Shown here: positions 22,426 to 61,670 of the stretch, piece by piece
How positions within the stretch are numbered: position 1 is the first letter of the stretch
Layout: each line of letters begins with the position of its first letter
Position numbers and translations under genes: made by a program
The notes under the pieces: model-generated
What the model was told of the DNA's origin: nothing
Databases searched by the model: none
The model's input: the letters and a program-made list of their open reading frames with translations, nothing else
Source of the DNA: Prolixibacteraceae bacterium
GTDB taxonomy: Bacteria; Bacteroidota; Bacteroidia; Bacteroidales; Prolixibacteraceae
DNA length: 64,000 bases
Direction of reading: 5' to 3'
NCBI GenBank assembly: GCA_019459485.1
Contig: JAIBEZ010000031.1
Coordinates: forward strand, 1 to 64,000

Positions 22426-22463
22426 ATAAAGTGAAAATTAAATGTGCAACTTTTCTACCAGGG

Positions 22464-23364: not shown

Positions 23365-23383
23365 GTTCTGGTGTAAGAATTGT

Positions 23384-23426: not shown

Positions 23427-23650
23427 TACCCTTCCGGAAATATATAACTTCAACCTCCAGTTTATTTTATTGCACCTTCAGGTTTAAAACTACCTGCAAA
23501 GATTATAATTATTGCAATCCAAAGTATAATACCAATGCATTAGTCTATATTTCTTTGATTTCGAGATTGTTTTTTCTCACCTCAATTTATATTTCTATAA
23601 TCACGAAATTATTTTCATGCACATCCAAGTTTCAGACAGTAAGGATGGGA

Positions 23651-24298: not shown

Positions 24299-24310
24299 TT
24301 TTGTCAATTT

Positions 24311-25360: not shown

Positions 25361-25396
25361 TTTATTCTTATAGGTTTAACTCAAAGTAATTTGCAG

Positions 25397-27889: not shown

Positions 27890-27971
27890 TGGTAAATTGT
27901 ATTTGACGAGCATATACACCAGTCGCCTTTGATAACTTCTGATTTTGGCAAGTTATACAAGCGCCAAACCA

Positions 27972-28015
27972 TACGTGTTATATAACTTTGGGAAAGAGTT
28001 ACATGATTCACAGAT
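27972..28015 (-). promoter_or_regulatory. Shared upstream element, copy B
   Basis: On the minus strand it starts atctgtgaatcatgtaactc and ends in ttatataacacgta. It is gaplessly alignable with 19437-19480 and 56122-56165 and lies 83 bp before the kinase start, almost the same distance as copy A (82 bp). The sequence between element and start codon is also similar in A and B. Confidence 0.55.
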
Positions 28016-28048
28016 GTTGCAGGATTCTGATTAGATACAGCGATAAGT

Positions 28049-29686: not shown

Positions 29687-29712
29687 GCCAGCTTAATAAA
29701 AGATTGGGAAAA

Positions 29713-32836: not shown

Positions 32837-33537
32837 TGATTTTAAGCCGGACCTTGAAGGTTCTTGTTTTTTTTGCGCTGTTACTGGCCTTTGCGGAAAC
32901 AAAAGCGCAGCAATCGCCCAACCAATTGTTGCAGAAGGTTCACCGCAAAATGATGACGGTGAAGGATTATACCGTTGATGCCGGAATAAAAGCAGATATT
33001 CCCTTGATTAAAATTTTGCCGGTAAAGGCTGTGATCTATTTCAAACAGCCCGATAAAATGAAGTTGGAATCTAAAAGCATTGCGGTAATGCCCCGACAAG
33101 GTTTCAGCGATGTAGCTAAAATTATTATGGACAGTACTTCTTACACCTCAGTTTCAACCGGCTTCGAAACCATTGGCAGTGTCCAGGCACAAGTTGTAAC
33201 TGTGATTCCTTCAGCCGAATCAGGCGACCTGGTTTTGGCTAAATTTTGGATTGACGCTTCTTCAGCGCTGATCTTGAAATCGCAGCTTACCACCCGCGCC
33301 AACGGCACCATGATGATTGAATACTTTTACGGAATACATGCATCTTTTGGCTTGCCCGACAAAATGATTTTTACGGTGGATGTCAGGAAATTCAAGATAC
33401 CAAAAGCCCTTGCAACCGATCTTCATAACCAGAGCAGAGCGCCGGTTGCAGATGATAAAAAGGACAAAAAGGGGCAGATCGTGATTAACTTGCAGAACTA
33501 TAAAATCAACGGAGGACTGAACGATTCAATTTTTTAG
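32833..33537 (+). CDS. LolA-like periplasmic lipoprotein carrier/outer-membrane lipoprotein-sorting-type protein
   Basis: 234 residues with a signal peptide (ends near TKAQ, ~25). The pattern of LolA/LolB-like half-barrels is visible: NQLLQKVHRKMMTVKDYTVDA, then KPDKMKLESKSIAVMPR and a run of beta strands ending FTVDVRKFKIPKA. It contains no lipobox, so it is probably soluble in the periplasm. LolA-type proteins carry lipoproteins or lipids between membranes. Encoded directly after an ABC ATPase and permease (4-bp overlap), it is likely to take a lipid-like cargo from that transporter. It overlaps the convergent PPTase gene by 4 bp at the 3' ends. The match is by fold and context, so the cargo is inference. 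Confidence 0.72.
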   Translation: MMILSRTLKVLVFFALLLAFAETKAQQSPNQLLQKVHRKMMTVKDYTVDAGIKADIPLIKILPVKAVIYFKQPDKMKLESKSIAVMPRQGFSDVAKIIMDSTSYTSVSTGFETIGSVQAQVVTVIPSAESGDLVLAKFWIDASSALILKSQLTTRANGTMMIEYFYGIHASFGLPDKMIFTVDVRKFKIPKALATDLHNQSRAPVADDKKDKKGQIVINLQNYKINGGLNDSIF

Positions 33538-34214
33538 GTTTTGATTACCACAAAAAACCTGATTGGTTGATCTTTTCTGTAAACGATACTTCCGGTTTCG
33601 CCATTGGGGCATGTAAATGTTTTTGAATTCAATTTCAACCGGCTGATATCATTTCCAGTCGTTCCGGTTACTGTAATTGCGGTGAGCTGATCAACCAATC
33701 CTATGCCTGCAGCTTTCAGTAATGCTTCTTTTCTTGTCCAGACTTCGGTAAATCGTTCGGCCAAATTGCCGTTGTTGCAATAGTTCGTTTCGGCATCCGA
33801 AAACGCATACCGAATCAGCAATTGTAAATCCTCTTTCCCTGTCAGCATTTCGATGTCAACGCCAATTCTTCCGGAGGAATTAAAAGCGAGTAGAAATGAA
33901 CGGTTTGTGTGACTCACGTTAAAACACAAATTAGTCCCGACTATAAATGGTTTTCCGAATCTTCCTTTTCTGAATTCAATTTCGATGGGTGGTTTTTTAA
34001 GGTAGCTCCCAAGAATCAACCGCAATGCTGACCTGCACGATAACCAGGTGCTTTTTTGTCCTGATCCTTTGAGCCGGTCAGCGTAAATCAATTCTTCTGG
34101 TGTCAGGATTTCGTGTAGATCAGGATTTTCAGCCATTGAATTGGTTCCGTAAACAATCACCAAATCATTGCTGCCGGTTATTTCCTGAAGACTATCCGAT
34201 TTCAGCCAATTCAT
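33534..34214 (-). CDS. 4'-phosphopantetheinyl transferase (Sfp type)
   Basis: 226 residues, the usual Sfp length. The Mg-binding motif IGVDIEML (~104-111) and the second motif FTEVWTRKEALLKAAGIGL (~152-170) are present, with the N-terminal segment NVSHTNRSFLLAF before them. It transfers phosphopantetheine from CoA to a Ser on a carrier domain. Its start codon overlaps the stop of the NRPS gene by 4 bp, which strongly suggests it is the dedicated activator of that NRPS's carrier domain (Ser1101). It is the last gene of the exopolysaccharide operon. Confidence 0.95.
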   Translation of the reverse strand: MNWLKSDSLQEITGSNDLVIVYGTNSMAENPDLHEILTPEELIYADRLKGSGQKSTWLSCRSALRLILGSYLKKPPIEIEFRKGRFGKPFIVGTNLCFNVSHTNRSFLLAFNSSGRIGVDIEMLTGKEDLQLLIRYAFSDAETNYCNNGNLAERFTEVWTRKEALLKAAGIGLVDQLTAITVTGTTGNDISRLKLNSKTFTCPNGETGSIVYRKDQPIRFFVVIKT

Positions 34215-37200
34215 AATTTCATGTTCGATTCTATTTCGTCAAGTCTTTTATCCAGCACTTCAGCAAAATACTGATCGTTTGGTGGTGCGAAAATGCGCGA
34301 ATGTTCATCAGGCAAAGTATGTACAATCACCCCTTTACGGGCAAAACGATTCCATCCGTAGTCTTTCCTGTTTGGGATGTAGAAGGTTGGTTTTCCTGCC
34401 CTAAAAAGATCGAGCTGAATTTCAGCCGGTTTTAATTCATATTTGATAAGGGCTTCGGTCATTGCCATTTCTACGTTATCCGACAAAAACATGGGCTTTC
34501 CGTCTTCTACCGTAATTTTACGATCTTTCTCTTTCATTATTCCCAACTGTATCAGCTTGAAAATGATGGAGAACCGGATGCTTTTGTATTTGTTGTGCAG
34601 GAGCCGTCGTTTTCCTGCCCAAGGTTCTTTCAGCAGCAGCCAGGTAACGTAAAATGGCTTTATGGCCGAAACTTTAAGGTTAAACAGTCGCTCTTCCGTT
34701 GGCGATTGCAGGTGTTTGGCCATCGACGAAACCGAGTCGATTACCCCGGCAAAGCTAACTTCATTGCCTTTGTTCGCCAGTTTCTTTGCCATATCGAACG
34801 CAATAAATCCTCCCAGCGAGAATCCCAGCAACATGTATGGCCCGTTTGGCTGAACTTTTTTTATTTCTTCGATATAGTCATCGGCCATTTCTTCGATGTT
34901 GTTGCTCAGTTCCCTGCTTCCATCTAAACCTTTTGCCTGGAAAGCGTAAATGGGCCGGTCGTCTTTTAAGTGGTGGGTAAGCGATTGATAGAGAAGTACA
35001 TTTAGTCCGGCGCCATGAATAAGGAAAAGTGGCGTTTTGGTTCCTTTTGGACGAATAGGCACCAAACATTGCCAGAAGCTATCCTTGTCTTCGGAAGTTA
35101 GCAAAGGCGCAAATGTGCGGACAGTTGAATTTTGTATCAGCGATGCCAATGGAATATTGATGTCTTTCAGCTTTTTGATTTCGGCCATCAGTTGAACGGC
35201 TTTCAGCGAATGACCACCTAAATCAAAGAAATCGTCGTCGATACCCATCGAGTCAATTGAAAGTACTTTTTTCCAAAGGCCAAGCACGAATTCTTCGGTT
35301 TCGTTGGTTGGTTTTGCACTTTCGTTGGTCGATTGTGCCAATTTTTCTTTGGCAGTATTGATTAAACTTCTTTTGTCAACTTTACCGTTGCTGGTCAATG
35401 GGATTTGCGCTACCGGCACAATCATTTCAGGAACCATGTAGGCCGGAAGTTTTTTCTTTAATTCCTCTTTTATGGTCTGGGCGCTCACTGGTTCGCTTTT
35501 TTCGGTATAAAATGCAAAGAGCGACTTTTCTCCGGAAGCATTTGTCGAAATGGCCACAACACATGTTTCAACTCCATCGAACGAACAGATTTGTTGCTCA
35601 ATTTCGCCCGGTTCTACGCGATATCCCCTGATTTTCACCTGTGCATCAACCCGTCCCTGGTAATAGATCAGACCATTCTGACCGGCTATAACCAGATCGC
35701 CGGTGCAATAACAGCGCTGAAGTCCGTTATCCGGCGTTTCGAACCAAATGAAAGCCTTGTTTTGTTCCGGCTCACGGTTCAGATAGCCAAGCGCTAAACT
35801 ATCGCCGGCAACCAGTAATTCGCCTGCAATTCCTTCCGGAACCATTTGTCGGTTGGCGTCAGTGATGTATATCCGGTATCCCGGCAACGGCTGACCAATC
35901 GGTACAGTTGTTTCGGGTTGATAGCCTACCTTTATTTCGAAAGCAAGCGCAACCACCGTAGTTTCGGTTGGCCCGTATGTGTTAAACAAGCGGTGTTTGG
36001 TTTCGCGTTTGTTCCAAAGGGTAACATCGGTAGTAGAGACGGCCTCGCCGCCAATAATTACCAGTCGCAGGCTTTCCGGAAGTGGCTGGTTCAGGTAACC
36101 GTCGGATTGGATAACCTGACGCCAGTAGGCGGTTGGCAAATCCCAGACTGAAATTTGATGCTGATGCGAAAAACGCAATAATTCATCGGTCACCAGCATT
36201 TCAGCAGTTCGCAGGTAAATGCCGGCTCCTGAACAAAATGAACAGAAAATTTCTTCAATACTGGCATCAAACGCCAGACTAGAAAATTGTAAAACATGGT
36301 CGTTGCTTGTAAATTCGTACAAGCCTATTGCTCCTGAAATGAAATTGGCGAGTGCTTTACGCGATATTTTTACCCCTTTGGGTATTCCGGTCGATCCGCT
36401 GGTGTAAATGATATAGGCAACACTATCAGGATGGTATGATATTTTTGGGAGGTCTCCAACAGAGGGGTTCTCTTTGATTTTTGAAACATCGAGTACCGGG
36501 ATATTTTCAACCAAATCAGAAACTTCACTGTCAATCAGGATTAATGAAACACTGGCATCGGTGCAGAAAAACTGTTTCCGCTCCGTTGGCATGGTTGGGT
36601 CGATGGGAAGAAAGCTGGCTCCACAGCGCAGCGTTGCCATGATGGCGGTAAAGTAATTGTAATTGCGTCCAATAACCACCGCAACGATTTGGCCGGGTTT
36701 AATTCCCATTCCAATCATTGTGGCCGACAGGTTTTCAATGTCGTTCGCGAATGTGTTGTACGAATACGTAATTCCGGAATCGAAAATTGCAGTCTGGTCA
36801 CGAAAAACATCTGCGACTTTGGTAAACTGGGTGAAAACGTCTTCCATTGTCACTGCTTTCCCAATCGCCTCATTAATATTTTTGGTGATTTCCAGTGCCT
36901 TTTCTGCTGAAATCAGCTCTATTTCATTTACTTGTTTAGCAGGAGCTTCAACCAGATTTTGAAGGAACATTTCGAAACTTTCGGCAATTGAACCGACACC
37001 GGAATATTTCGTTCCGGATGGGATATGATAACTTATTTCGTTGTTAATAAGGTTGATAACAATGCTGTCGTTGTTCAGTAAATTGGTTTCTGCCGAAGCT
37101 TTGGAAATGATTATTTCCGGCAGGTCAGCTGCATTGTTTCTTAATTCAGGATAGCGTATCCGGGTTGACCGGGTGAAAGTTTCCGATTTCTCCGCTTTTT

Positions 37201-38506
37201 TTATACCGGGTAGCATCTTACCAATTTCAGCCGAAACAGAATTCGTAGGATCAATGGAGGCGTTTAGTGGTACCCAGGTATTATAAATTCCTTCGAAGCT
37301 TTTAATTTTTTCAGGTAAATCGCCCGATACAAAACCCAGTGTTCCAGAAGTTTGGTTCGACAAACGAAGGAAGAAAAGCATCAAAGCCGCAGAAATTACA
37401 TCTTCAGCTTTTTGCTCCGGAAACAGAATATCCAACTGTGAAATGGTCTTTTCATTCAGTGTTGTTTTCGTAACCGATGGGCTATCTGCTCCGGTTACGA
37501 CCGGCCAAATCAAAAATTCGGTTTTGGCCAGTTCCTTTTTCCAGAAAGGTTCAAAGCGGGCCATGCTTCCAAAACGAACCAATGCATTTTGAGCTACTTT
37601 CTTATCAGTTTCGGGCATTTGAGTGCCAATTTCCAGAAGATTTTCAACAGGGGTCTTCACACCGTTTTTATCGTACAAGACTTCAGGAAGTACCAACCCA
37701 TCCGCACAATAAAATCCTCTTTTCCCATTAAAATCAATGATTTGGCCAGCATTGCCCTTCTGATTAAAATCAACCGATGCTTTGGCAACCACAAAATATT
37801 CGTTTCGGATGTAAAGCAATGGCAGCGTAAACTCGTTGGCATAATGACTGCTGAAATTTGTTGCCCGAATCAGCGTGTCAATCGATTTCGCTGATCTGTC
37901 GCAGGTAATCAATCCGAAATTTTCCGGACGGGCAGCCAAAGGATAATAGGTTCGGTTGGCCAGATTTTGGGCTACCGGCGTTAATTTCCGGTTGACGATT
38001 GATGTAACCAGTTCACCAAAACTTTTTAGCGCGGCTTCAAAACAGCGGGTGTTTATCGAAAGGGCAGTATCGTTTGGCAATACCGGAATTAACTGACCGG
38101 CAACGATATCTCCGGCATCAATTTCATCAACCACTTCGTGCCACGAAACGCCGTGTTCTGTTTCGCCGTTCATTGTTGCCCAGTTGCTGGCATACATTCC
38201 GGCATAGCGGGGGAGTGGGGCATCGTGGTAATTGATGGCCATGATGCGCGCCAGCGAGGTAAATTGTTTTTTCAGAATCAGGCTATTGTTGATACTGAAG
38301 ATATAATCGACCGGTTCGAAAACCGATAAATTGCTGAGGTTGCTGTATTTTGGGAAGGTTTCTGAGGCATTTTCACGGATCAGCCATTCATCGCCCGAAA
38401 CCAATGCCTGAATACTGATTCCTTGTTCTTTTAAAATGGCCATGCACTTTTGAGGGAGATGTCCTTCTCCAACTACAATGCATGTTATTCTATTCTGATT
38501 TTCCAT
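34211..38506 (-). CDS. Single-module NRPS: formyltransferase - half condensation - adenylation - carrier - thioesterase
   Basis: About 1431 residues; ATG at 38506 is chosen over the adjacent GTG. Domains: (1) a methionyl-tRNA formyltransferase-like domain, ~1-295, with N93/H95 in INYHDAPLPRYAG and D131 in EIDAGD matching the FMT catalytic Asn-His-Asp; (2) ~320-545, resembling only the C-terminal half of a condensation domain, with no HHxxxDG; (3) adenylation domain ~555-1050, with YTSGSTGIPKG (702-712), FDASIEEIF (747-755), NTYGPTETT (843-851) and Lys in NGKVDK; (4) carrier domain with Ser1101 in DLGGHSLKA; (5) thioesterase with LIHGAG and nucleophile Ser1231 in GFSLGG. It should activate one amino acid, perhaps formylate it on the carrier, and release it to an acceptor. 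It sits inside an exopolysaccharide operon, with its own PPTase next to it. The amino acid is not readable with confidence. Confidence 0.93.
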   Translation of the reverse strand: MENQNRITCIVVGEGHLPQKCMAILKEQGISIQALVSGDEWLIRENASETFPKYSNLSNLSVFEPVDYIFSINNSLILKKQFTSLARIMAINYHDAPLPRYAGMYASNWATMNGETEHGVSWHEVVDEIDAGDIVAGQLIPVLPNDTALSINTRCFEAALKSFGELVTSIVNRKLTPVAQNLANRTYYPLAARPENFGLITCDRSAKSIDTLIRATNFSSHYANEFTLPLLYIRNEYFVVAKASVDFNQKGNAGQIIDFNGKRGFYCADGLVLPEVLYDKNGVKTPVENLLEIGTQMPETDKKVAQNALVRFGSMARFEPFWKKELAKTEFLIWPVVTGADSPSVTKTTLNEKTISQLDILFPEQKAEDVISAALMLFFLRLSNQTSGTLGFVSGDLPEKIKSFEGIYNTWVPLNASIDPTNSVSAEIGKMLPGIKKAEKSETFTRSTRIRYPELRNNAADLPEIIISKASAETNLLNNDSIVINLINNEISYHIPSGTKYSGVGSIAESFEMFLQNLVEAPAKQVNEIELISAEKALEITKNINEAIGKAVTMEDVFTQFTKVADVFRDQTAIFDSGITYSYNTFANDIENLSATMIGMGIKPGQIVAVVIGRNYNYFTAIMATLRCGASFLPIDPTMPTERKQFFCTDASVSLILIDSEVSDLVENIPVLDVSKIKENPSVGDLPKISYHPDSVAYIIYTSGSTGIPKGVKISRKALANFISGAIGLYEFTSNDHVLQFSSLAFDASIEEIFCSFCSGAGIYLRTAEMLVTDELLRFSHQHQISVWDLPTAYWRQVIQSDGYLNQPLPESLRLVIIGGEAVSTTDVTLWNKRETKHRLFNTYGPTETTVVALAFEIKVGYQPETTVPIGQPLPGYRIYITDANRQMVPEGIAGELLVAGDSLALGYLNREPEQNKAFIWFETPDNGLQRCYCTGDLVIAGQNGLIYYQGRVDAQVKIRGYRVEPGEIEQQICSFDGVETCVVAISTNASGEKSLFAFYTEKSEPVSAQTIKEELKKKLPAYMVPEMIVPVAQIPLTSNGKVDKRSLINTAKEKLAQSTNESAKPTNETEEFVLGLWKKVLSIDSMGIDDDFFDLGGHSLKAVQLMAEIKKLKDINIPLASLIQNSTVRTFAPLLTSEDKDSFWQCLVPIRPKGTKTPLFLIHGAGLNVLLYQSLTHHLKDDRPIYAFQAKGLDGSRELSNNIEEMADDYIEEIKKVQPNGPYMLLGFSLGGFIAFDMAKKLANKGNEVSFAGVIDSVSSMAKHLQSPTEERLFNLKVSAIKPFYVTWLLLKEPWAGKRRLLHNKYKSIRFSIIFKLIQLGIMKEKDRKITVEDGKPMFLSDNVEMAMTEALIKYELKPAEIQLDLFRAGKPTFYIPNRKDYGWNRFARKGVIVHTLPDEHSRIFAPPNDQYFAEVLDKRLDEIESNMKL

Positions 38507-38523
38507 CACATTTTTCTTTTGAA

Positions 38524-40203
38524 CTATAATATTATAAATTTTCCTGATTCGGAAAGCTTCTCTGAACGGATTAAATAAATATAAATACCCGGAACAAGGT
38601 GGGAAACATTGACTTCTGCGATTCTTTTTTCAGGCTTGATACCCGATTGCTGAAGGACATTGACGCCTTGCAGATTAAAAATTTCCAAATAAATATCGAA
38701 CCCAAATTCTTGCTGAATACTGATTTTCAATTGGTCTTTTACCGGATTTTGTAACAATCGGCTTTTCCTGTGGGTATTTTGAGGCTGAATCAGGCTGGAA
38801 GTTGATCCATCGTATTCGAAGGCTCCAACATCTGATTGGGCACCATAAGGACGGAGTATTCCCGAAAAATCGAACCCGACGACATTGCTTTCATCCGCAA
38901 CATCAATTAGCGGAGAACCTTTTGTTAGTTTAAAATCGTTGGGCAACTGCATATCTGGCGATACAAAACCTGCCAGATCTGCATTCCGTGCAAGGTAATT
39001 ATTCAACATAGTCGCATCAGAGGCGGTATATTGAAACATGATGTAGGAATCTTTTCCTTTAAAGCTGGTATTGTCGTTTTCGTAATAATCGAAATTTCCC
39101 GGATTGATAATCACGTTGGACGAAATCTGGCTCCCCTTGCTTTTTACGCTGGAGAACCGGATACCCTCAGACTTTGGATTGATAATATTGTTGTGCAGAA
39201 TATAAAAAGCGGCGTCGGCCTGAACCGAAACATCGGTAACAAAAATACCGTGTTTCATTTGCGTCAAATCGGTTGGCCGAAAGCTGCGGCCAGCATCCAA
39301 AATAATGTTGTTGAAAATTTTGTATTCGCCCAGGCCGTGACTTTCGATTCCGTTTCCTTTGCCCTGACTGATGAAATTGTTGTAGCAATCGCACTTTGAG
39401 CCTCCGCCAATGGTGATGCCCGACATTTGTGATTCGGTTTGCAACTGACTGTCGTACAGAACGGTATTGTTGTATATCTGGCAATCGTTGGATGCAGAAC
39501 TTACCTGAATTCCATCCCATCCCGAATATTTGATGATGTTGTTGTAGATTCTTACTCCATCGAGCAAACTGGGCATCAGAAGAACATCCTTTCCATCGCA
39601 TTGCACGGTTTGTCCAAAGTATTTGGTGTTGCCCACATACAATCCTTCGTCGCCCACATTGGCAATGTAATTGTCGTGAATACTGGTATTGTACTGGGTA
39701 AATGTTCCTCTGACCGAGGCCAAGGTACAATCTGGATCGGTTTTGGCATAGATGCCGCCAATCATGCAGTTTTCTATGGAAACATGTTCAATCTCAAAGT
39801 TTGTACTCAGTTCTCCGATTCCCATTCCGCCGCCATTGGCCACTCTTTTTATCTGAAACCCATAAGTTATTCCGGGGTCGCCGGTACCGGTAAATTTAAA
39901 ATTGCTGCAATTCTGAATGGAAATACCAAAATAGTGATCGGTGTCGATGGTAACCGCACCACCCGAATTGATCATGACAATTGGTCTGAATGTGCTTCCC
40001 TTGAAATTCTTTATCAGCAAATATTTGCGGTTTCCGGCAGCAAAGTAGAGGGTGTCGCCGGGCCCAACTTCGTTGTAAGCTGCATCGTTTCCATCAAGAT
40101 AAATTATTTCCGGTCCGATAAGGAAACTGGTTTTCTGACCAACAGCCAATTGAATAGTTATCGGTAAAATTCCCAAAAGTAGTATGGCAAGCTTTTTTAT
40201 CAT
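38524..40203 (-). CDS. Right-handed parallel beta-helix protein with T9SS sorting domain
   Basis: 559 residues with a signal peptide (ends near AVGQ, ~23). The middle (~100-420) has the Asn-rich repeats of a right-handed parallel beta-helix (segments such as IYNNIIKYSGWDGIQV and CYNNFISQGKGNGIES). A C-terminal ~80-residue domain (LLQNPVKDQLKIS ... VPGIYIYLI) is a type A T9SS sorting domain, which sends the protein across the outer membrane. Beta-helix proteins in polysaccharide clusters are often lyases, epimerases or binding proteins that act on the finished polymer. I see no clear catalytic motif. It lies between the NRPS and a GT2 with gaps of 17 and 3 bp, so it is made with the polysaccharide. 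Confidence 0.88.
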   Translation of the reverse strand: MIKKLAILLLGILPITIQLAVGQKTSFLIGPEIIYLDGNDAAYNEVGPGDTLYFAAGNRKYLLIKNFKGSTFRPIVMINSGGAVTIDTDHYFGISIQNCSNFKFTGTGDPGITYGFQIKRVANGGGMGIGELSTNFEIEHVSIENCMIGGIYAKTDPDCTLASVRGTFTQYNTSIHDNYIANVGDEGLYVGNTKYFGQTVQCDGKDVLLMPSLLDGVRIYNNIIKYSGWDGIQVSSASNDCQIYNNTVLYDSQLQTESQMSGITIGGGSKCDCYNNFISQGKGNGIESHGLGEYKIFNNIILDAGRSFRPTDLTQMKHGIFVTDVSVQADAAFYILHNNIINPKSEGIRFSSVKSKGSQISSNVIINPGNFDYYENDNTSFKGKDSYIMFQYTASDATMLNNYLARNADLAGFVSPDMQLPNDFKLTKGSPLIDVADESNVVGFDFSGILRPYGAQSDVGAFEYDGSTSSLIQPQNTHRKSRLLQNPVKDQLKISIQQEFGFDIYLEIFNLQGVNVLQQSGIKPEKRIAEVNVSHLVPGIYIYLIRSEKLSESGKFIIL

Positions 40204-40206: not shown

Positions 40207-41397
40207 TTATTTTCCTCTTTTTGCCCGTTCCCAGTTGACAGTTTGCGAGCCTTTCAAATATCGTTTAAATCCCAGAAAAACAGATAGATTCATGATGAAA
40301 AAGTAATACGGTATGAACAAAAGTTTTACTTTTATCGATTTGTTTTCGAGGTACCAGCCCAGCAGCGCGCTTACGTAAAACACCACCTGAAGCCAAAATA
40401 AAATGCTGTAAAATCCGAAGTTTGTTATTCCTTCGTTTACTGCCAGAACTGTTCCGGCCGGAATCAAAAACAGCAATGAAAGTGGTGCCAGGGTCCAACG
40501 TAAAACGCGATGAGAAATATACTGAAAAGAAAGTGTTCCGTACTTAAAAATATTTAGCAGCGAATTTAGGCGGACAACCGACTGAATCCCTCCAGCAGAA
40601 ATCCGTATTTTACGTTTCAGTTCCTCTTTTACGTCAGCTGAAGCTGTTTCAATTGCATAAGCTTCAGGATCATACTGAATGGTATAGCCGTTTTGGGCAA
40701 CCCGAAGCGAAATAATAAAATCGTCGAGCAAAGTGTCTTTTTCAACTTCCTGAAAGAGTTCTGTACGAATGGCAAACAACTCGCCAGCTGCGCCAACCAC
40801 AGAATAAAGCTCGGCATCCCATTTTTTTAATGTCGATTCGTATTTCCAGTAAAGACCTTCACCGGCACCTGCGGCGGCATCTTTTTCTTTCCCGAAAATG
40901 CGCTTTTCGCCCGAAACACAACCCACTTTCGGGTCGCTAAACAGGTTGACAATCCGGCGGATGGATTCTTTGCCCAGCATTGTATTGGCATCGCAGAACA
41001 CCACGATGGGTGTTTTCACCAGTTTCATTCCACGGTTCATGGCGCCAATTTTTCCGTTTCGCTCCGGAACGTGATGCACTTCAACGTCAATGTATTGCCG
41101 CAGCAACTCAGGAGTTCCGTCATTCGATCCGTCGGTCACCCAAACTTTGTGCAGTTTCTCCGCCGGATAATCCAGCTCGCGCGAGTTTTTTATTTTTGCA
41201 TCCACAAAGTCCTTCTCGTTGTAGGCAGCAATAAACAAAGTCACTTCTGGTTCGTATCCGGGGTCAGGAACCTGCATTCTTTTTAAGCCAAACATCCGGC
41301 GAATTCTGACGATGATAAAAAGCAGGATACCGTAACCCACATAAGCGTAGAATACAATGAAAAGAAAGATCCAGAATAGAATTTCAATTGCTGCCAT
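40207..41397 (-). CDS. Membrane glycosyltransferase family 2
   Basis: 396 residues: one N-terminal membrane helix (~5-30), a GT2 domain (~50-280) and three to four C-terminal helices (~295-375). UDP-sugar binding segments are visible: FIAAYNEKDF, CDANTMLGKES (DxN/D-type metal site) and the acceptor-side DDFIISLR. The layout is that of hyaluronan/cellulose-synthase-like inner membrane GT2s. It should add a sugar to the growing lipid-linked unit or polymer at the cytoplasmic face. The typical processive Q-x-x-R-W is not clear here. It is co-transcribed with neighbours (3- and 9-bp gaps). Confidence 0.9.
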   Translation of the reverse strand: MAAIEILFWIFLFIVFYAYVGYGILLFIIVRIRRMFGLKRMQVPDPGYEPEVTLFIAAYNEKDFVDAKIKNSRELDYPAEKLHKVWVTDGSNDGTPELLRQYIDVEVHHVPERNGKIGAMNRGMKLVKTPIVVFCDANTMLGKESIRRIVNLFSDPKVGCVSGEKRIFGKEKDAAAGAGEGLYWKYESTLKKWDAELYSVVGAAGELFAIRTELFQEVEKDTLLDDFIISLRVAQNGYTIQYDPEAYAIETASADVKEELKRKIRISAGGIQSVVRLNSLLNIFKYGTLSFQYISHRVLRWTLAPLSLLFLIPAGTVLAVNEGITNFGFYSILFWLQVVFYVSALLGWYLENKSIKVKLLFIPYYFFIMNLSVFLGFKRYLKGSQTVNWERAKRGK

Positions 41398-41406: not shown

Positions 41407-42183
41407 TTAGTAGTTTCTCAACTTTTTAGCATACATGTTAAATTTGTCAACTTTGCCAAATTCGAATACCGCTATTTCTTTCAAAGTATCGGTTATCGGA
41501 AACTGACCACTGTGATAATCTTCAATGATCAGGGTTATTTGCGGATAAAACCTTATAAATTCCATAGCTCCGCGAAGGGCTTCCGTTTCCATTCCTTCAA
41601 TGTCGATTTTCATAAAAATAGCTTCCTCCGGTTCAATTCCCAACGAAGGCATCAGGTCGTCCAATCGTCGTATTTCGGCTTTGTTCTCACCTGGTCTTTT
41701 GTCTTTGTGTAACCTCGATGCGCCAGTATTCAGCGGGTCAAATTTGTAACTGGTTTGGTAATTGTATTCTCCCAAACCATAAGGAAGTATTCTGACTGTA
41801 TTTTGTAAGTTATTTAATCTTAGGTTTTTCATTAATGTTTTTATGTTGTCGGAAACCGGTTCAAAAGCGAAACACCGCTTGTCCATTTTTGCCAGCAGAA
41901 TACAATAATCGCCTATACACGAGCCGGCATCAATGAAAACCGAGAATTCTTTTTTACGTTTCAGAATAAATCTTTTTACGCCCCATTCGTATGCCAGGTT
42001 TGCAAACTGGAAATCGTTGGTGTTGTTGCGGCAAAAGAAGGTTCCGATTGAAGTACGGATAATCCGGTCGTTTTTGTGCGACGTGTTAAAAAGTACATAT
42101 TGCACAGACGTTATAATTGACCTGATATCCCCGTGTTTCAGGTATTCAAAAAAATATCTTAAATAGGTTATCAGTTGCCTCAT
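41407..42183 (-). CDS. FkbM-family methyltransferase
   Basis: 258 residues with an FkbM-type SAM-dependent methyltransferase core: glycine-rich motif VFIDAGSCIGDYCILLAK (~93-110), acidic residue in CFAFEPVSDN, and a later MKIDIEGMETEALRG segment, which is the diagnostic FkbM motif. In polysaccharide clusters these enzymes O-methylate sugar residues. The N-terminal ~80 residues are basic and may bind the membrane or the acceptor. It is in the operon, 9 bp from each neighbour. The acceptor is unknown. Confidence 0.9.
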   Translation of the reverse strand: MRQLITYLRYFFEYLKHGDIRSIITSVQYVLFNTSHKNDRIIRTSIGTFFCRNNTNDFQFANLAYEWGVKRFILKRKKEFSVFIDAGSCIGDYCILLAKMDKRCFAFEPVSDNIKTLMKNLRLNNLQNTVRILPYGLGEYNYQTSYKFDPLNTGASRLHKDKRPGENKAEIRRLDDLMPSLGIEPEEAIFMKIDIEGMETEALRGAMEFIRFYPQITLIIEDYHSGQFPITDTLKEIAVFEFGKVDKFNMYAKKLRNY

Positions 42184-42192: not shown

Positions 42193-42813
42193 TTAAACGG
42201 TCACTCTTTCCCAAATTCCGGTTTGTGGGTTGTATTGTTTAATTACCCTTGCCGGATTCCCAACAGCAACCGAATAGGGCGGTATATTTTTGGTTACTAC
42301 CGAACCTGCTGCAATTACCGAATGTTTCCCGATGGTCACGCCTGCAACTACCACCGAATTGGCGCCAATCCATACTTCATCTTCCAGCGTTATTTTCTTT
42401 TTGGTAACAGGTTGTTTGTGAGGCACGATGTTAATGTCTTCGTAGCCGTGGTTTAGTCCTGAAAGCACAATGTTCTGGGCAAGCATTACATCGTTTCCAA
42501 TGGTCACCGGACCAATCAGCACGTTGCTCATACCAATGCGCACGCGGTCGCCAATCAGCACATCGCCAACACCGTTGTTGATGGTGGTAAAATCTTCGAT
42601 CGTCGAGTCGTTGCCCAGCACAAAATTATTGAATGGCATCACATCCATTCGGGTAAACCGGCAAATGCGCGAGTTTTTACCTTTCGTATGTTTGAACGGA
42701 TTCAAAAATATTTTCACCCAAAGTCGTGGCCGCGACTGGTTTTTCGGCATCATGGCCTTCAATGCCAGTCTCTTCAGCTTCGGATTTGCTTTGATTCTTT
42801 CAATTATGCTCAT
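42193..42813 (-). CDS. Left-handed beta-helix (hexapeptide) acyltransferase
   Basis: 206 residues dominated by hexapeptide repeats ([LIV]-G-x4), from NFVLGNDSTIEDFTTI to GKHSVIAAGSVV. It ends in the typical AVGNPARVIKQY. A His in LSGLNHGYED is in the position of the catalytic base. Trimers of this fold transfer acetyl or other acyl groups from acyl-CoA to sugars. In this operon it probably O-acetylates a sugar of the exopolysaccharide. The short basic N-terminus (KRLALKAMMPKNQ) could contact the membrane. Confidence 0.9.
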   Translation of the reverse strand: MSIIERIKANPKLKRLALKAMMPKNQSRPRLWVKIFLNPFKHTKGKNSRICRFTRMDVMPFNNFVLGNDSTIEDFTTINNGVGDVLIGDRVRIGMSNVLIGPVTIGNDVMLAQNIVLSGLNHGYEDINIVPHKQPVTKKKITLEDEVWIGANSVVVAGVTIGKHSVIAAGSVVTKNIPPYSVAVGNPARVIKQYNPQTGIWERVTV

Positions 42814-42815: not shown

Positions 42816-44018
42816 TTAAGGTCTTGATTTTTGAACGGTTTCAAGCGCTTTGGCAATTTCGTTCACGTTGTTTTCCCAGGTATGTTCGCGGGCAAATTCT
42901 TCCCGTTTCCGGCGAACTTTTTCATTGTCTTCCTGAAGTGCCTTTTCAATGCATTCGATGTATTCTTCTTTGTTCTCAGCCAGATAGGTGAACCCGGAAA
43001 AAACACTCATTGCTTCTGTTTTGGTGGCAACAGTCGGTTTTCCCATTGCCAGGTATTCATCTATTTTGCGTGGATAATTGCCAATTGTTACCGGACTCAG
43101 CACCTGCGGATTAATGGCCACATCAAACTGCTTGAGGTAGGAGGGAAGTTCGTTCCCGTTTTTGTTACCCAAAAAGTAAACGTTTTTAAGCTGATGAAGC
43201 TTGCTTGACCTGAATTTGTCGTCTTCCGGGCCGACCAGTACCACGCTCCATTCCGGGCGGCTTTCGGCAATGTGTTCCAATACCTGAATGTCGAGCCGAA
43301 GCGACAACAATGCACCAATGTATCCAATAATTGGTTTCGGAATGTTTTTTATATCATCAGGAATTGTAGTAACCAGGTTGGTGTCAAACAAACTCACGTC
43401 GCAGCCTTGTCCTACGTAAAATGAGTTAGGGTTGTGTTTTTGTGCCAAAGCAGCCAGATAGGTTGAGTTGGCCACTACCAGATTGGCTTTTTTCATGTGC
43501 AGGGCTTCCACCCGAATACCTTGCTTTTTCCAGTAATCAACAGCAATCAGGTTGTCGCGGGTATAGTAAATATAGGATTCAGGTTTCAGAAGTTCTTTCA
43601 TATAAAAACTTCGGAACATGTCGCTATCGTTAAAAATGATAAAATTTTTAAACCCAAGTTCGCCGATTGCCCACGAAATTTGTTTTGCAAACCGTTTGTT
43701 GTTGATCCGGTTAAGCCAGTCGAACAAACCAGCCGGTCCAATCCAGTTGATGGATTCGATTAATTTGGCGGGATAAAGGTTCCATATATTTTTAGAGACC
43801 TCCACCAGTTGAGGTTTTCCATCCTTCACAATTTTGGTGCGTTTTCTTATACTCTCCAGATTTTGGTGCCTGTATCTCGAAATGCGGTCTAATGGTGAAT
43901 TCACGTAGAGGACACGGTTCTTTTTGGCTAATTCTTCAGCAATATTTTTGCAATTACTGCCAATTTCAATGTCCCATGCCTGAATTCCAAGTACAATAAT
44001 ATCGCGGTTTTCTATCAT
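42816..44018 (-). CDS. Glycosyltransferase (GT-B fold, GT4/GT1-like)
   Basis: The ATG at 44018 (MIENRDIIVLGIQAWD) is chosen because it overlaps the upstream stop as ATGA; a longer in-frame reading would run deep into the previous gene. About 400 residues. N-terminal Rossmann half with LGIQAWDIEIGSN, then the nucleotide-sugar half with PIIGYIGALLSLRLD, VVLVGPEDDKF and YPRKIDEYLAMGKPTVA, the last being the typical C-terminal donor-binding stretch. It probably acts at the cytoplasmic membrane on lipid-linked sugar. It is the eleventh gene counting from the receiver at 54421; neighbours are another GT-B enzyme and an acyltransferase. Confidence 0.88.
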   Translation of the reverse strand: MIENRDIIVLGIQAWDIEIGSNCKNIAEELAKKNRVLYVNSPLDRISRYRHQNLESIRKRTKIVKDGKPQLVEVSKNIWNLYPAKLIESINWIGPAGLFDWLNRINNKRFAKQISWAIGELGFKNFIIFNDSDMFRSFYMKELLKPESYIYYTRDNLIAVDYWKKQGIRVEALHMKKANLVVANSTYLAALAQKHNPNSFYVGQGCDVSLFDTNLVTTIPDDIKNIPKPIIGYIGALLSLRLDIQVLEHIAESRPEWSVVLVGPEDDKFRSSKLHQLKNVYFLGNKNGNELPSYLKQFDVAINPQVLSPVTIGNYPRKIDEYLAMGKPTVATKTEAMSVFSGFTYLAENKEEYIECIEKALQEDNEKVRRKREEFAREHTWENNVNEIAKALETVQKSRP

Positions 44019-45184
44019 AGCCCGGTTTTTAGCTTGTTTTGAGGGCCAATTTCCTGATAAATTTTTAGCACATTTTCGGCCATTGCTTTCCACGAAAAAA
44101 GTGCGGCTTGCTGATAGCCCAGTTTTATTTTGCTTCCACGCAACGTACTGTCTGTGGTGAGCTGAATCATGGCGGCAGTAATTTCTTCGGGTTTATACGG
44201 ATCAATGATCAATGCTGCATCGCCTGCAATTTCGGGCATTGACGATGTATTTGAGGTGATGACCGGAACTCCGCAACCCATCGCTTCCAATATCGGAATG
44301 CCAAAACTTTCGCGCAACGATGGGTACAGAAATACCCCGCACTGACTGTAAATCGCCGGAAGATCAGTATTTACAACATATCCGGTGAGATGAATCCTCC
44401 CGATCAATTCAGGTGCCCCGATTTCAGAAAGTATCTTTTTAAGTTCGTTTTGGTCGTAGTCGAGCATTAAAAGCTGCATCTCGCTGTTGGTTTGCTTCAC
44501 AAAATCGGCATAAGCTTTCAAGGTGCCTTTTGTATTTTTTTTCGGGTCGGTATTTCCTAAAAAGAAAAAGAAATGATCCGGAAGGTGGTATTTTTCTTTC
44601 ACGCGGGTAAGTTCTTCCCGATCGGCAACTGGTTTAAAATGTTCGCCTACTCCGTTGTAAACAGCCGTTAAGCGCGAATCGCCTTTCATCCCGAAAAAAT
44701 CGGCAATCCGGTTTTTTTCGAAATGAGAAACGGTGATGATTTTTCTGCTTTTCCTTACAATCCGGGGCACAATAAGTTTACGATACACGTTTCCAAATTT
44801 CTGATAGGGTGTTCCGCTGCCTTGCAGTATTTTTAAATAGCTGTGCTCCATGTAAATAATATCGTGCAGCGTATCTACAACCGGAATAGAGGAAAATATG
44901 GGCGCTGTGTTCGATGTGCAATGCAGAATGTCGCAACCTTCGCGGGCGGCGGCTCTGGGCAAGGCAATTTGTTCCCACAAAGGGTAAAAACCACCGTCGA
45001 GTTTCACAATTTTAAAGTTGGGTGTTTCCTGAATAACCTGATCGTCTTCATCGGGTTTTACGAAAATAACATACTCGTTTTCACGATCGATCAATTGCAG
45101 GTTACGAATCAGTTCGAGCGCCACCATGTCCATTCCGTGTTTTTTCCTGCGGAAAAGTCGTTGTCCTTCAATAGCTATCTTCAT
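44015..45184 (-). CDS. Glycosyltransferase family 4
   Basis: 389 residues, GT-B fold. The donor-binding half has FFLGNTDPKKNTKG, the SLRESFGIPILEAMGCG stretch with the E-x7-E pair typical of retaining GT4 enzymes, and SMPEIAGDAALIIDP. It uses a nucleotide sugar to extend the lipid-linked repeat unit. The start is clear (ATG, 2 bp after the upstream stop) and the end overlaps the next gene by 4 bp. The specific sugar is unknown. Confidence 0.92.
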   Translation of the reverse strand: MKIAIEGQRLFRRKKHGMDMVALELIRNLQLIDRENEYVIFVKPDEDDQVIQETPNFKIVKLDGGFYPLWEQIALPRAAAREGCDILHCTSNTAPIFSSIPVVDTLHDIIYMEHSYLKILQGSGTPYQKFGNVYRKLIVPRIVRKSRKIITVSHFEKNRIADFFGMKGDSRLTAVYNGVGEHFKPVADREELTRVKEKYHLPDHFFFFLGNTDPKKNTKGTLKAYADFVKQTNSEMQLLMLDYDQNELKKILSEIGAPELIGRIHLTGYVVNTDLPAIYSQCGVFLYPSLRESFGIPILEAMGCGVPVITSNTSSMPEIAGDAALIIDPYKPEEITAAMIQLTTDSTLRGSKIKLGYQQAALFSWKAMAENVLKIYQEIGPQNKLKTGL

Positions 45185-45186: not shown

Positions 45187-46446
45187 TCAGGTTTTTAGTT
45201 GATGACCATTATTTTTCGTTGGTGGAGCTTCAGTTTCCGGGTGATCGCCATGAACGGTATGGATGAACTTTTTGTTTGCCCCTTTTAATTTGAACAAGGA
45301 GCCAAACATCAGTAAAAATGCACGTGGCAGGCTTGAAATTGCCTTCAACGTTCGGTAACTGAAAAATTGCCGGGGAGTTGAAAGCAGAAGGGTCAGTCCG
45401 GTTACGATAAATAATCCGGTCCAAAAGAGCCAATTTGTAAAAAAATTACTTTCAATAAATGGCAGTGAAAGCAAATTTGCCGCGATAGAAACAGCGCTGC
45501 AAAGGAATAACACGCCCAAAAGCAATACGCGTGGAAGAAAGGCAAGTTGGAGAACTTTGTCGAAAAAATCGATATTTCCCTTCAGGAAAAGGTGTTTCAG
45601 GCCGCTTCCAAGATAGTTTGAGAAGTAAATGAATTGAGCTGAAAGCCAGCGTTTTCGTTGTCGTTGGAAATTATCGGCTTTTTGCGTTTTTTCGTCGTAA
45701 ACCAGCGCGTTTTCCAGATAGCCAATGGTTTGACGGTCGCGCAGTAGTTTCAGTTCCAGTTCCTTGTCAAATCCACCAATTGCTTTAATATCAGCCATCA
45801 TATTCTTGAAAAACAGGTATTCAAAAGCCATTCCGGAGCCAATAAGCGCCGACGAAAGGCCCAAAACGCGGTGTCCTTTTCTGAAAATGTGGTTGTTAAT
45901 TTCTTCGCTGATCGCGTCCAGAATTGCAAACGAAGTATCGGTGTTTTTGGCGACCCGGTGCCCTTGAATTACCCTGAAACCCTGATTAAAACCTTCATTT
46001 ATTTTTGTGAGGAAATCGGCGGCCATGAGGTTGTCGGCATCTAAAATCACCGCGATCTCATAATCGTCGGGGATTTGCGACATGGTTTTGTTGAGCGCTT
46101 TCGATTTGGTGCTGTTTTCGAAAGCCACTTCCACCACCCGGACGGGCATTTCGCTGAGTTTCTGCAAGGTTTCGGCGCTAAACGAATCGGCAATAACAAT
46201 CACTTCGTACATTTCTTTCGGGTAGTCCTGCCGGAGTGAGACTTCGGCTGTTTGCAGGATAACTTTATCTTCTTTATACCCAGGAATTAAAACTGCAATT
46301 TTACGCAACCGGTTTTCCTTTGTCTTGCGGTTTTTCAGCGGAAACAATCCGGCCAATGCATAAATCAGGTTATAAATAACTGTGATTCCGAGGTATCCGG
46401 CCAGAATGTATTGGAGTATATTGATGATCAGTTTAAGTGTATTCAT
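45187..46446 (-). CDS. Processive-type membrane glycosyltransferase family 2
   Basis: 419 residues: N-terminal membrane helix (~8-30), GT2 domain (~45-270) and several C-terminal helices (~290-370). It has VLIPGYKED, metal-binding VILDADN and the QRQRKRWLSAQ segment, which carries the Q-x-x-R-W signature of processive beta-glycosyltransferases such as cellulose or hyaluronan synthases. Such an enzyme may make a homopolymer stretch or act as an N-acetylglucosaminyltransferase (Alg/PgaC type). The 46446 ATG overlaps the upstream stop by 4 bp. Its presence beside a Wzx-type flippase is worth noting because processive synthases usually do not need one. Confidence 0.9.
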   Translation of the reverse strand: MNTLKLIINILQYILAGYLGITVIYNLIYALAGLFPLKNRKTKENRLRKIAVLIPGYKEDKVILQTAEVSLRQDYPKEMYEVIVIADSFSAETLQKLSEMPVRVVEVAFENSTKSKALNKTMSQIPDDYEIAVILDADNLMAADFLTKINEGFNQGFRVIQGHRVAKNTDTSFAILDAISEEINNHIFRKGHRVLGLSSALIGSGMAFEYLFFKNMMADIKAIGGFDKELELKLLRDRQTIGYLENALVYDEKTQKADNFQRQRKRWLSAQFIYFSNYLGSGLKHLFLKGNIDFFDKVLQLAFLPRVLLLGVLFLCSAVSIAANLLSLPFIESNFFTNWLFWTGLFIVTGLTLLLSTPRQFFSYRTLKAISSLPRAFLLMFGSLFKLKGANKKFIHTVHGDHPETEAPPTKNNGHQLKT

Positions 46447-47387
46447 CTTCCGGATTGGTTAAGTGGTGGATTGCAGTGAATATTTTCATTCCCGAGATTT
46501 TTGAGATGCCAGATTAATCCGTTCCAATAAGATTTGAAATGCTTCTTTTCACCCTTTGCCAAATGAAGTAGCAGATTTTTTGTTCCGGCAATCAATATCT
46601 GGTAAGCAAGGCTGATCCATTTTTGTAAACCCTTGCTATTCCGGCGGGTAAACAAAATCCGGTTTCGTGCCATGTAGTAGGTTTTAAGCGGGCTGTTTTT
46701 TCCTGTCGAAATAGATTCTTTGTGAAAAATCACTGAATTTCCCACGTAATAGTTCTGATAACCAGCTTTTCTGATTTTCCATCCCCAATCGATTTCTTCG
46801 TAATATAGAAAATAAATGTCGGGCATCATCCCCACTTTTTCAATTACTTTTCGCGGAACCATCATGGCTGCACCATGACCAAAAGCTGTTTGACGGTCGG
46901 TGTCATACTGGTTGTTGTCAATTTCTTTGTAACCAATACTGAAATTGCGTATGGTGTATGGATTCAATTCTGAATATCCGGCATACTGGATCATTTCTGG
47001 AGTATGGTGATAACGGATTTTGGGGCTAACTACTCCGGCATCGGGATGCGCCTGGAAAAAGGCAACAAGCGGCTCCAGAAACCCTGCCGGAACTTCAGTG
47101 TCATTGTTGATGAACAAAAGGTAATCGCCTGTTGATTTTTCGATGCCAAGGTTATTTCCACCTGCAAAACCGAGATTTTTCGAACTCTTTATCAAGGTAA
47201 TTTCAGGAAAATTGCTTTTAATCGAATCAGGATTGTCGTTGGGCGAAGCATTATCGACGACAATGATCTCGATATTGAGGTAACTTATTTTTCGCAGCGA
47301 TGCCAGCAAGTCGAATGTAACCTGCGATTGATTGTAATTTACTGTAATAACTGAAACCAATGGCCAATCGCGTGCAGAGTCTTTCAT
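46443..47387 (-). CDS. Glycosyltransferase family 2 (rhamnosyltransferase-like)
   Basis: 314 residues, GT-A fold without membrane helices. SVITVNYNQSQVTFDLL at the start, VVDNASPNDN, LLFINNDTEVPAGF (metal-binding NND) and YYEEIDWGWKIRKAGY near ~200 are typical of the WcaA/rhamnosyltransferase group. It transfers an activated sugar, often dTDP-rhamnose, to the lipid-linked unit. It is 21 bp from the upstream polymerase/ligase gene and overlaps the next by 4 bp. Confidence 0.92.
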   Translation of the reverse strand: MKDSARDWPLVSVITVNYNQSQVTFDLLASLRKISYLNIEIIVVDNASPNDNPDSIKSNFPEITLIKSSKNLGFAGGNNLGIEKSTGDYLLFINNDTEVPAGFLEPLVAFFQAHPDAGVVSPKIRYHHTPEMIQYAGYSELNPYTIRNFSIGYKEIDNNQYDTDRQTAFGHGAAMMVPRKVIEKVGMMPDIYFLYYEEIDWGWKIRKAGYQNYYVGNSVIFHKESISTGKNSPLKTYYMARNRILFTRRNSKGLQKWISLAYQILIAGTKNLLLHLAKGEKKHFKSYWNGLIWHLKNLGNENIHCNPPLNQSGR

Positions 47388-47408: not shown

Positions 47409-48878
47409 TTATGCTAAAAGTATTGAATTTTGCCCATTTTGTTCCTCTAATTCTTTATCGAATTTTTCGGCCATGAACAGGAATGCCATGCTCATGTAAA
47501 TAATAATTCCGGTTGGCATCTGCCCCAATACACCGTTCCCGTAGGAGGCGACCATTATTCCGAAAAAACCGCAGATGAGCGCAATCATCCTGAACCGCAG
47601 CCAATCGTTCCTGATCTTGAACATCAATACAAAAGCACTTTTTATCAAAACATAAAAAAGGATGAACAGGTGCAGAAGCAGACCAACAATTCCCTGTTCG
47701 GCCCATATCGCAACATACCAGCTATCGGTTGGTGTATTGGCCAAAAATGTATTTGGCGAAAAGCGTTTGCCCCAGTTTCCGGCAGAACCCAGTCCTCCGC
47801 CAAAGGGGCGGGAGGCAAGATAAGTCTTTAGGTTTCGCTGATTTTCGAGCCGAACCTGTAACGAAGGATCATTTGGATCGAAGGCAGAACGCATTCGGCG
47901 TATTTGATAGTTTCCCTGAGCGATGGTGGTGTATTTAAAAAATACAAAAACGGAAATCCCCATTATTGCTCCAAATATCATCATCTTCAGATTTTTTATC
48001 AAAACAAAATAGAGTGCAAAGCCCATAATAGGTACGGCAATGGCGCCACGTGTCCCTGAAATTATCATTCCGTAGATGCCTGCCAGCGCAACAATTGTGT
48101 AAAATACCCGGAGCCTGGTGTTTTTCACATGCAGGGCCAGAATTCCAAATACCACTCCGGCGTATGCCTGCGATGCGCCGAACTGTCCTGCATCGGTATA
48201 AAACGAAAAAATGCGCAATTTGCCGAGCAGCAAATGGGTTACGGCACCACCTTCGTTCAGCCATTGCTGTTCGAATGGATCGACCCCGATAAAAAGCTGC
48301 ATCATTCCTTTGAGGGTTCCCAAAAGAGAAAAAGTACCCCAAAGAATAAAAATGAGGTTCAGATCTTTTTGCCTGTTCAGGATGATGAACGTCAAAGGAA
48401 TGGTAAGTATCATATAAAGCGACATCCCGCGCATGGCATAAAACCAGGCAGCACGCGACACCGCTTCAGGATTTAAAAGCTGGAAAAGCGCGTAACCAAA
48501 CCAAATGCCTGCCAGCAGTGTGAGATCTGATTTTGCCAGTGACCAGTTAACCGGTTGGTCAAAGCTTTTGAAAAACAGCGATAAATAGGTAAGTACCAAT
48601 AACCCGTCAACAGTTAAGCCCAGTGGACCGGGAATGTAACGATTGAGTCCGAGTACAAAAAAGTTGGCAACGAAAACAATCAAAAAACTAAAATAAGGGG
48701 CATTGAAAATCCGGTTCAAAACGATGAGCATCACTGGCAAAAGGGTCAGCAGCAAACCAATAATTATTCCTCCTTTGACTATCACAAATGCAGATACGAT
48801 TGCAAGAATCACCATCAGTATGATAAAAAAAGGACTTCTTATCCTATCGGAGCCAAAAACCGGATCAAACTTATCCAT
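47409..48878 (-). CDS. O-antigen ligase/polymerase-like (Wzy/WaaL) membrane protein
   Basis: 489 residues with 10-12 predicted membrane helices and the Wzy_C type large periplasmic loop around residues 310-390, containing RMRSAFDPNDPSLQVRLENQ and PFGGGLGSAGNWG, which is the conserved R-x-x-H/G-rich area of O-antigen ligases. In a Wzx/Wzy pathway it polymerises repeat units in the periplasm. The only flippase in the operon overlaps its start by 8 bp. Whether it is the polymerase or a ligase cannot be decided from sequence; polymerase is the more natural role here. Confidence 0.88.
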   Translation of the reverse strand: MDKFDPVFGSDRIRSPFFIILMVILAIVSAFVIVKGGIIIGLLLTLLPVMLIVLNRIFNAPYFSFLIVFVANFFVLGLNRYIPGPLGLTVDGLLVLTYLSLFFKSFDQPVNWSLAKSDLTLLAGIWFGYALFQLLNPEAVSRAAWFYAMRGMSLYMILTIPLTFIILNRQKDLNLIFILWGTFSLLGTLKGMMQLFIGVDPFEQQWLNEGGAVTHLLLGKLRIFSFYTDAGQFGASQAYAGVVFGILALHVKNTRLRVFYTIVALAGIYGMIISGTRGAIAVPIMGFALYFVLIKNLKMMIFGAIMGISVFVFFKYTTIAQGNYQIRRMRSAFDPNDPSLQVRLENQRNLKTYLASRPFGGGLGSAGNWGKRFSPNTFLANTPTDSWYVAIWAEQGIVGLLLHLFILFYVLIKSAFVLMFKIRNDWLRFRMIALICGFFGIMVASYGNGVLGQMPTGIIIYMSMAFLFMAEKFDKELEEQNGQNSILLA

Positions 48879-61669: not shown

Positions 61670-61670
61670 A

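Follow-up and report, generated by a model that had tools for sequence, protein, structure and literature searches.

Starter modules of nonribosomal peptide synthetases (NRPSs) that carry a formyltransferase (FT) formylate in the loading module (PMC8949500; PMC12858407; PMC11705928), and such domains are described in a review as very scarce and always placed in the initiation module (PMC8949500). On the other hand, truncated condensation (C) domains have been reported at the start of assembly lines, such as the C* domain of the thermoactinoamide synthetase ThdA, an N-terminally truncated, probably inactive C domain before the first adenylation (A) domain (PMC7253712); the passage on ThdA mentions no FT. 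Here, we describe a single-module NRPS of 1432 amino acids with the domain order FT, C-terminal half of a condensation domain (hC), A, carrier (T) and type I thioesterase (TE), encoded at 34211..38509 on the minus strand of a 64,000 nucleotide stretch of DNA from a Prolixibacteraceae bacterium (GCA_019459485.1, contig JAIBEZ010000031.1, positions 1 to 64,000; hereafter the window, to which positions refer unless a locus is named), where it is part of a polysaccharide operon. With the initiation module of the linear gramicidin synthetase LgrA (FT-A-T) it shares an FT ahead of the A and carrier domains, while in LgrA no half C domain separates FT from A, the module is without a TE and its product enters a multimodular line; the LgrA FT is also shorter. 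Likewise, the FT starters for anabaenopeptilide, kolossin, discodermin and halicylindramide are described to formylate in the loading module, as is predicted here, but belong to multimodular peptide lines. That the module is an accessory assembly line making formyl-aminoacyl groups which decorate the glycan is a reading which, judged from sequence, we consider evenly balanced.

The FT region (residues ~1–300, 37610..38509; all domains and operon genes lie on the minus strand) consists of the catalytic domain (Formyl_trans_N at residues 67–160, 62.6 bits) with an intact Asn-His-Asp triad (N93/H95/D131), followed in some homologues by a stretch resembling Formyl_trans_C, which is matched between the catalytic domain and hC in L034, L044, L028 and L047, above the cut-off only in L034. 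Translation starts at a GTG at 38509 or an ATG at 38506. Behind hC (residues ~306–550, 36860..37594) follow the A domain (35381..36823; AMP-binding at residues 563–910, AMP-binding_C at 969–1043), the carrier domain with Ser1101 (35108..35290; PP-binding at 1074–1134) and the TE with Ser1231 (34214..35032; Thioesterase at 1160–1262). The NRPS gene overlaps by 4 bp that of an Sfp-type phosphopantetheinyl transferase (PPTase, 33534..34214), the last gene of the operon, besides which the window genome holds one further ACPS-family match. Pfam, motifs and alignment, together with coordinates and domain scan, hence bear out the preliminary description of one open reading frame with these domains and catalytic residues, overlapping a dedicated PPTase inside a polysaccharide operon. 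Orthologues in four other genomes of the family are 92, 74, 69 and 64% identical, and the FT triad as well as the serine motifs of carrier and TE are intact in all five proteins, in which the candidate Ser, Asp and His of the TE are also kept. More widely, the triad is retained in 14 of 15 aligned homologues; the exception, L030 (3631–17424), is a 4598 aa NRPS with an FT-like stretch in its second module, which no longer has the catalytic Asn and Asp. Compared by bit score only, the best PDB sequence match of the FT is ArnA (67.1 bits), with linear gramicidin synthetase at 28.6 bits. No downstream condensation domain is fed by the module, as the TE follows the carrier and the operon contains no other NRPS gene.

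While Pfam Condensation gives no match to the window protein itself at E ≤ 0.1, its homologues identify the region between FT and A. Residues 338–574 of L034 match positions 189–456 of the 456-position profile (E 2.6e-9, above cut-off), residues 550–796 of L047 match positions 192–455 (E 1e-6, below cut-off) and L044 matches positions 257–326 (E 0.014, below cut-off), so that behind the FT the profile is matched in its second half alone. In a profile comparison, 13 FT-hC sequences (L029, L030 and L044 were left out, as their FT was not found by the motif used) matched 34 C domains with E 2.2e-8 and P 95%, with an alignment that begins after HHxxxDG; the reversed alignment gave E 0.088 and ten column shuffles 0.47–0.95, while the window protein and its three nearest orthologues, taken on their own, reached only E 7e-4 and P 26%. 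A model of residues 300–560 (pLDDT 73) retrieved in a structure search NRPS and polyketide synthase proteins with C or C-like domains by title among the best 50 of 575 matches, with superpositions at 9.8–18.6 Å rmsd and a query TM of at most 0.52. Because 22 of the 26 rows of its alignment had been selected for being C-domain lobes, from 31 such lobes at hand, and the structures superpose only loosely, this model is supporting rather than independent; a model of residues 1–560 built from four sequences (pLDDT 48) was set aside. By sequence comparison, residues 320–545 are consequently assigned to the C-terminal half of a condensation domain, as had been proposed, and the alternative that they are unrelated to condensation domains, which was to speak against that proposal, is rejected by the L034 match, the profile comparison and the structure search. 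With the N-lobe and its HHxxxDG absent, the C-lobe alone does not constitute an active condensation domain; kept directly ahead of the A domain, it has the form of a truncated starter C domain.

The surrounding genes form a Wzx/Wzy polysaccharide locus, as an initiating sugar-phosphate transferase (Bac_transf, 53200..54408), a Wzx-like flippase (48871..50223), a Wzy-like polymerase (47409..48878) and glycosyltransferases are combined in one operon. The NRPS gene begins 14 bp past the gene of a β-helix protein with a type IX secretion tail (38524..40203), itself preceded by the GT2 glycosyltransferase GT2c (40207..41397), which is 77–97% identical in 17 other loci of the family. A search of 140 family genomes with the β-helix protein gave matches at E ≤ 1e-40 in 19, and 18 loci were tabulated; G034 was dropped (40% over 340 residues, in a 3238 aa frame), second copies elsewhere in the genomes were left out (frames of 1042–1289 aa, one of 481 aa) and G012, G015 and G794 entered at 50–56% identity. 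In several family genomes, shorter β-helix matches lie elsewhere inside larger open frames of 1042–1289 aa. GT2c and the β-helix gene are adjacent in all 18 loci and a GT4 glycosyltransferase (44015..45184 in the window; Pfam) is present in 17; the GT2c of G793 (L091:10752–11957) is split over two open frames, likely by a frameshift or an assembly error.

An NRPS is found in 12 of these 18 loci, in variable architecture and at variable positions. Five are of the FT-hC-A-T-TE type, namely in the window genome (G000), G009, G793, G778 (a Mariniphaga sp. metagenome-assembled genome, MAG) and G735 (a Tangfeifania diversioriginum MAG), the latter two genera also belonging to the Prolixibacteraceae; in all five an NRPS gene follows the β-helix gene, the other position being upstream of GT2c. 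Dimodular NRPS genes of 2202–2225 aa occur in G735, G784, G734, G732 and G029, the last with a separate A-T-TE gene beside it, and a sixth (G789) is cut at a contig end. Together with the single module of G786 and, in G792, an open frame of 1376 aa whose first C domain is complete, they make up a dimodular-type set of eight proteins. In six of these the motif that opens the C-lobe lies in the first 30 residues; it is missing from G732, which has the same short lead ahead of A. Most of these sibling NRPSs thus begin with hC, without an FT. A PPTase accompanies 11 of the 12 NRPS-bearing loci, the twelfth (G789) being split over contigs, and none was observed in the six others; since the PPTases of G784, G786 and G792 are distant relatives (31–36%), different PPTases have joined the locus. 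No NRPS is in view in G781, G785, G787, G794, G012 and G015, of which two lie on short contigs, and as the contigs of G785 and G787 end near GT4, an upstream NRPS could be missed there.

Beyond the family, GT2c matches at E ≤ 1e-130 in 64 of 295 genomes of the order, with up to 82% identity outside the window genome, and is by these matches unusually well conserved for a polysaccharide locus. The best-matching loci of 40 of the 64 genomes, one each and including the family genome G032, were fetched, several being cut by contig ends. No NRPS is in view in 39 of the 40, absence meaning no BLAST match to two reference NRPSs at E ≤ 1e-10; in the remaining one, L142 (7396–19901), which belongs to a different family within the order, NRPS genes together with a PPTase lie upstream of the GT2 glycosyltransferase GT2a, a third position. 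The NRPS is accordingly an accessory and not a core component of a widespread polysaccharide locus, and the loci without it in view, 39 order-wide and six in the family, indicate that the polymer does not need it. This would also be expected if the NRPS were a passenger, a gene for some unrelated biosynthesis inserted downstream of the polysaccharide genes and only co-transcribed with them, which we regard as very improbable, as five orthologues of 64–92% identity hold the same place with intact catalytic motifs and different NRPSs occupy the same locus, with a PPTase alongside in 11 of 12. The presence of NRPSs in 12 of 18 family loci and in L142 indicates a link with the glycan that exceeds one chance insertion.

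Three further genes seemed to accompany the NRPS within the family. The group 1 glycosyltransferase GTb (42816..44093) is found at ≥70% identity in 12 of 12 loci with an NRPS and in none of six without (Fisher p 5.4e-5), GT2a (46443..47387) in 12 of 12 and none of four with the region in view (p 5.5e-4) and the hexapeptide-repeat acyltransferase HexAT (42193..42813) in 10 of 12 and none of six (p 0.0015), all assigned by Pfam and all tests ignoring kinship. As NRPS-specific partners they are rejected, because the association fails order-wide, where GTb and HexAT occur without an NRPS and thus do not require it, and is not significant on independent tree pairs.

The amino acid activated can be predicted from the A domain. 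The pocket, the positions of which we take to follow PheA numbering, reads DAEAIGTVVK in the window protein and DAEAIGTV(V or I)K across its orthologues. Among A domains in the PDB, LgrA ranks first by whole-sequence score (two A domains, the best one at 255 bits), while the highest score for a single stretch, 305 bits, goes to A1 of the anabaenopeptin synthetase ApnA. ApnA A1 accepts arginine and tyrosine. Six of the eight positions of DAEAIGTV equal those of the lysine-activating BacB domain, DAESIGSV (PMC3207962), and seven of ten agree with the lysine code DGEDHGTVVK, as do seven of ten with an arginine cluster given in the same source (PMC12283262); lysine as sole substrate is weakened by this equal fit, and a cationic amino acid, lysine or arginine, is predicted. 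A literature search for the exact code found nothing. Pockets of sibling modules are either of this kind or glycine-like: those of the dimodular proteins, DILV(I or L)G..., are near glycine codes, with DILVLGMVWK sharing eight of ten positions with DILQLGMIWK (PMC12283262) and DILQVGLIWK being another glycine code, while the A-T-TE protein of G029 reads DAESIGTVI. On another contig of G734, an NRPS at the contig end (L102:111–5993; A-T-C-A-T-TE) has Lys/Arg-like and then glycine-like pockets; this open frame is without FT and 54% identical to the A-T part of the window protein.

The position of the formyl group depends on what the FT recognizes. FT-hC starters elsewhere precede pockets such as DAWLLGNVV in L046, close to the leucine code DAWFLGNVV (PMC7253712), and DFWSIGMVHK in L043, close to the threonine code DFWNIGMVHK (PMC4169593), and as these residues lack a side-chain amine, formylation of the α-amine is suggested to be likelier than that of a side chain; moreover, FT domains acting in cis are reviewed to formylate only the N-terminal amino acid (PMC8949500). 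That the FT instead acts on a side-chain nitrogen (N-ε of lysine or N-δ of ornithine) or on another residue, leaving the α-amine free, is in our view improbable, yet NRPSs are known to use Nδ-formyl ornithine as a building block (PMC12283262), the window-type FT-hC modules go together with a cationic pocket and the arrangement in the closest relatives found outside the family would fit. These relatives, L028 (9187–16650) and L050 (1414–9918), 34 and 42% identical over ~1415 aa and from the same taxonomic order as the window genome, have the architecture A-T-C-FT-hC-A-T-TE, extended in L050 by a second, terminal TE, and a pocket identical to that of the window protein; a C domain with intact HHxxxDG precedes the FT-hC of their second module. 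The second carrier of L028 is without the usual GGHS.

The most coherent course of events would then be the following. The operon would make an exported Wzx/Wzy-type polysaccharide alongside an accessory one-module assembly line, the carrier of which is armed by the PPTase and loaded by the A domain with lysine or arginine. The FT would formylate the α-amine of the loaded amino acid from formyl-tetrahydrofolate, as FT starter domains do, while hC may be non-catalytic and serve as a platform on which A and FT sit. In the absence of a C domain, water, the amino acid's own side chain or a sugar could be the acceptor for the TE, which would hand the N-formyl-aminoacyl group to a sugar hydroxyl or amine, or to a lipid-linked repeat unit, and so create a charged side chain. 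What the sequence establishes is the domain order, the intact motifs, the orthologues and the recurrence of NRPS genes at this locus; the amino acid loaded, formylation at the α-amine, the part played by hC and, most of all, this last transfer are suggested rather than proven. The glycan is the best guess for the acceptor because NRPS and PPTase recur at varying positions in one polysaccharide locus. Amino acids on bacterial glycans are chemically known, for example the lysine amides of Proteus O-antigens. More tentatively, and somewhat short of an even chance, exchangeable amino acid or short peptide groups might decorate a conserved surface polysaccharide in some members of the family, with NRPS modules being swapped in a serotype-like manner; such groups would be formylated or plain lysine/arginine-like residues and a glycine-like dipeptide.

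Several observations weigh against decoration of the glycan. We know of no structure for any of these glycans. Among the 39 NRPS-less loci of the order, 28 carry GTb or HexAT, and L165 has GTb at 71%. Presence of an NRPS needs five changes on the GT2c tree and four on the β-helix tree (quick trees), of which only two well-supported independent pairs result (p 0.5), so that a tree test cannot reach significance. In L028 and L050 the α-amine should be needed for condensation, so the FT may act there on a side chain or an upstream residue, and the neighbouring genes, viewed by open reading frame only, were not recognized as polysaccharide genes. The same holds for the surroundings of L029, a single FT-A-T-TE module of the same family and 27% identical to the window NRPS. 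It bears on the argument of the preliminary description that homologues widespread outside polysaccharide loci and with a known free product would contradict a role on the glycan: L029 goes part of the way towards such a case.

These relatives also favour a free small molecule made alongside the polymer and never attached to it, such as N-formyl-lysine or N-formyl-arginine, a lactam or a short oligomer, which could act as a signal or as a matrix-trapped metabolite. Single-module NRPSs with a TE do release free products, as exemplified by indigoidine-type synthetases, and genes for an ABC transporter ATPase, a permease and a LolA/MucB-like protein (31084–33537, plus strand) converge on the PPTase. 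The transporter lies on the opposite strand, though, and a search of 11 other loci, several of them cut off shortly past the PPTase, did not find it; and the recurrence of NRPSs of varied architecture and position at one polysaccharide locus, in 12 of 18 family loci and in another family, speaks against such a product, which we hold to be the main alternative to an attached group, though the less likely of the two.

The remainder of the operon, which runs from ~55997 down to 33534 with regulators first and with gaps or overlaps below 80 bp up to 54852, encodes a protein with a match to the outer membrane efflux protein family OEP (52442..53194), for which its position suggests a role in export, a Wzz-like chain-length protein (50223..52430; weak Wzz and GNVR matches, below cut-offs), a further GT2 glycosyltransferase, GT2b (45187..46446; Pfam), and an FkbM-family methyltransferase (41407..42183; Pfam). 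Many histidine kinases and response regulators lie on both flanks (16176–30873 and 54421–63957), and a DUF2961 protein (29713–30873) and a fimbrillin-like protein (20226–21299) are also encoded there.

The preliminary description had regarded the replacement of the condensation N-lobe by an FT as a potentially distinct architecture. This is not supported, as truncated starter C domains have already been published and FT-hC is not particularly unusual; the candidate of an FT-hC unit restricted to window-type systems is rejected, since other Bacteroidota and further phyla have it too, in some cases within multimodular NRPSs. In a tblastn search of PLSDB with FT-hC as query, 320 records matched, of which 40 span 80% or more of the query, and among the 30 matches listed most come from rhizobia and several carry an NRPS or NRPS/PKS annotation. 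Of 395 genomes sampled from the Bacteroidota, 8 match at E ≤ 1e-15, with G000 and G416 spanning FT and hC, and at E ≤ 1e-30 matches, not all reaching the end of hC, are found in 14 of 349 genomes from the phylum of an Acinetobacter genome and in 5 of 199 from that of an Aminicenantes genome. Open frames of 1491–1640 aa with an FT-hC match are seen in 13 of the former 14, with domains checked in L044 alone; in this Shinella plasmid protein (9013–13626) a luciferase-like monooxygenase domain splits FT-hC-A, followed by the rest of A and T. Phage records gave 15 matches of formyltransferase size only, none covering 80% of the query.

What is new here is the polysaccharide setting rather than the FT-hC architecture. 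Rhizobial, Mycetohabitans and other FT-hC NRPSs, 25–31% identical over FT-hC, likewise place FT-hC before an A domain but differ in their pockets and often begin longer NRPS or NRPS/PKS genes, and no polysaccharide genes are found among the features of six such stretches with annotation, a seventh carrying none. A literature search at title and abstract level, covering subscription journals only to a small extent, recognized no relevant NRPS in a polysaccharide locus. The FT-hC unit provides a test case for formylation in NRPSs, as its location after a full C domain in L028 and L050 contrasts with the exclusive placement in initiation modules given in the review (PMC8949500). If glycan decoration holds true, an NRPS as maker of the amino acid groups of a glycan would be a new link between natural products and the cell surface. 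A natural comparison is offered by relatives that share the backbone genes but have an FT-NRPS, another NRPS or none in view, and since the backbone is common to these types, the effect on polymer chemistry is directly testable. In its conserved backbone and exchangeable modification genes the locus resembles Wzx/Wzy loci with variable decoration genes, from which it differs in that its exchangeable portion extends to whole NRPS modules and a PPTase.

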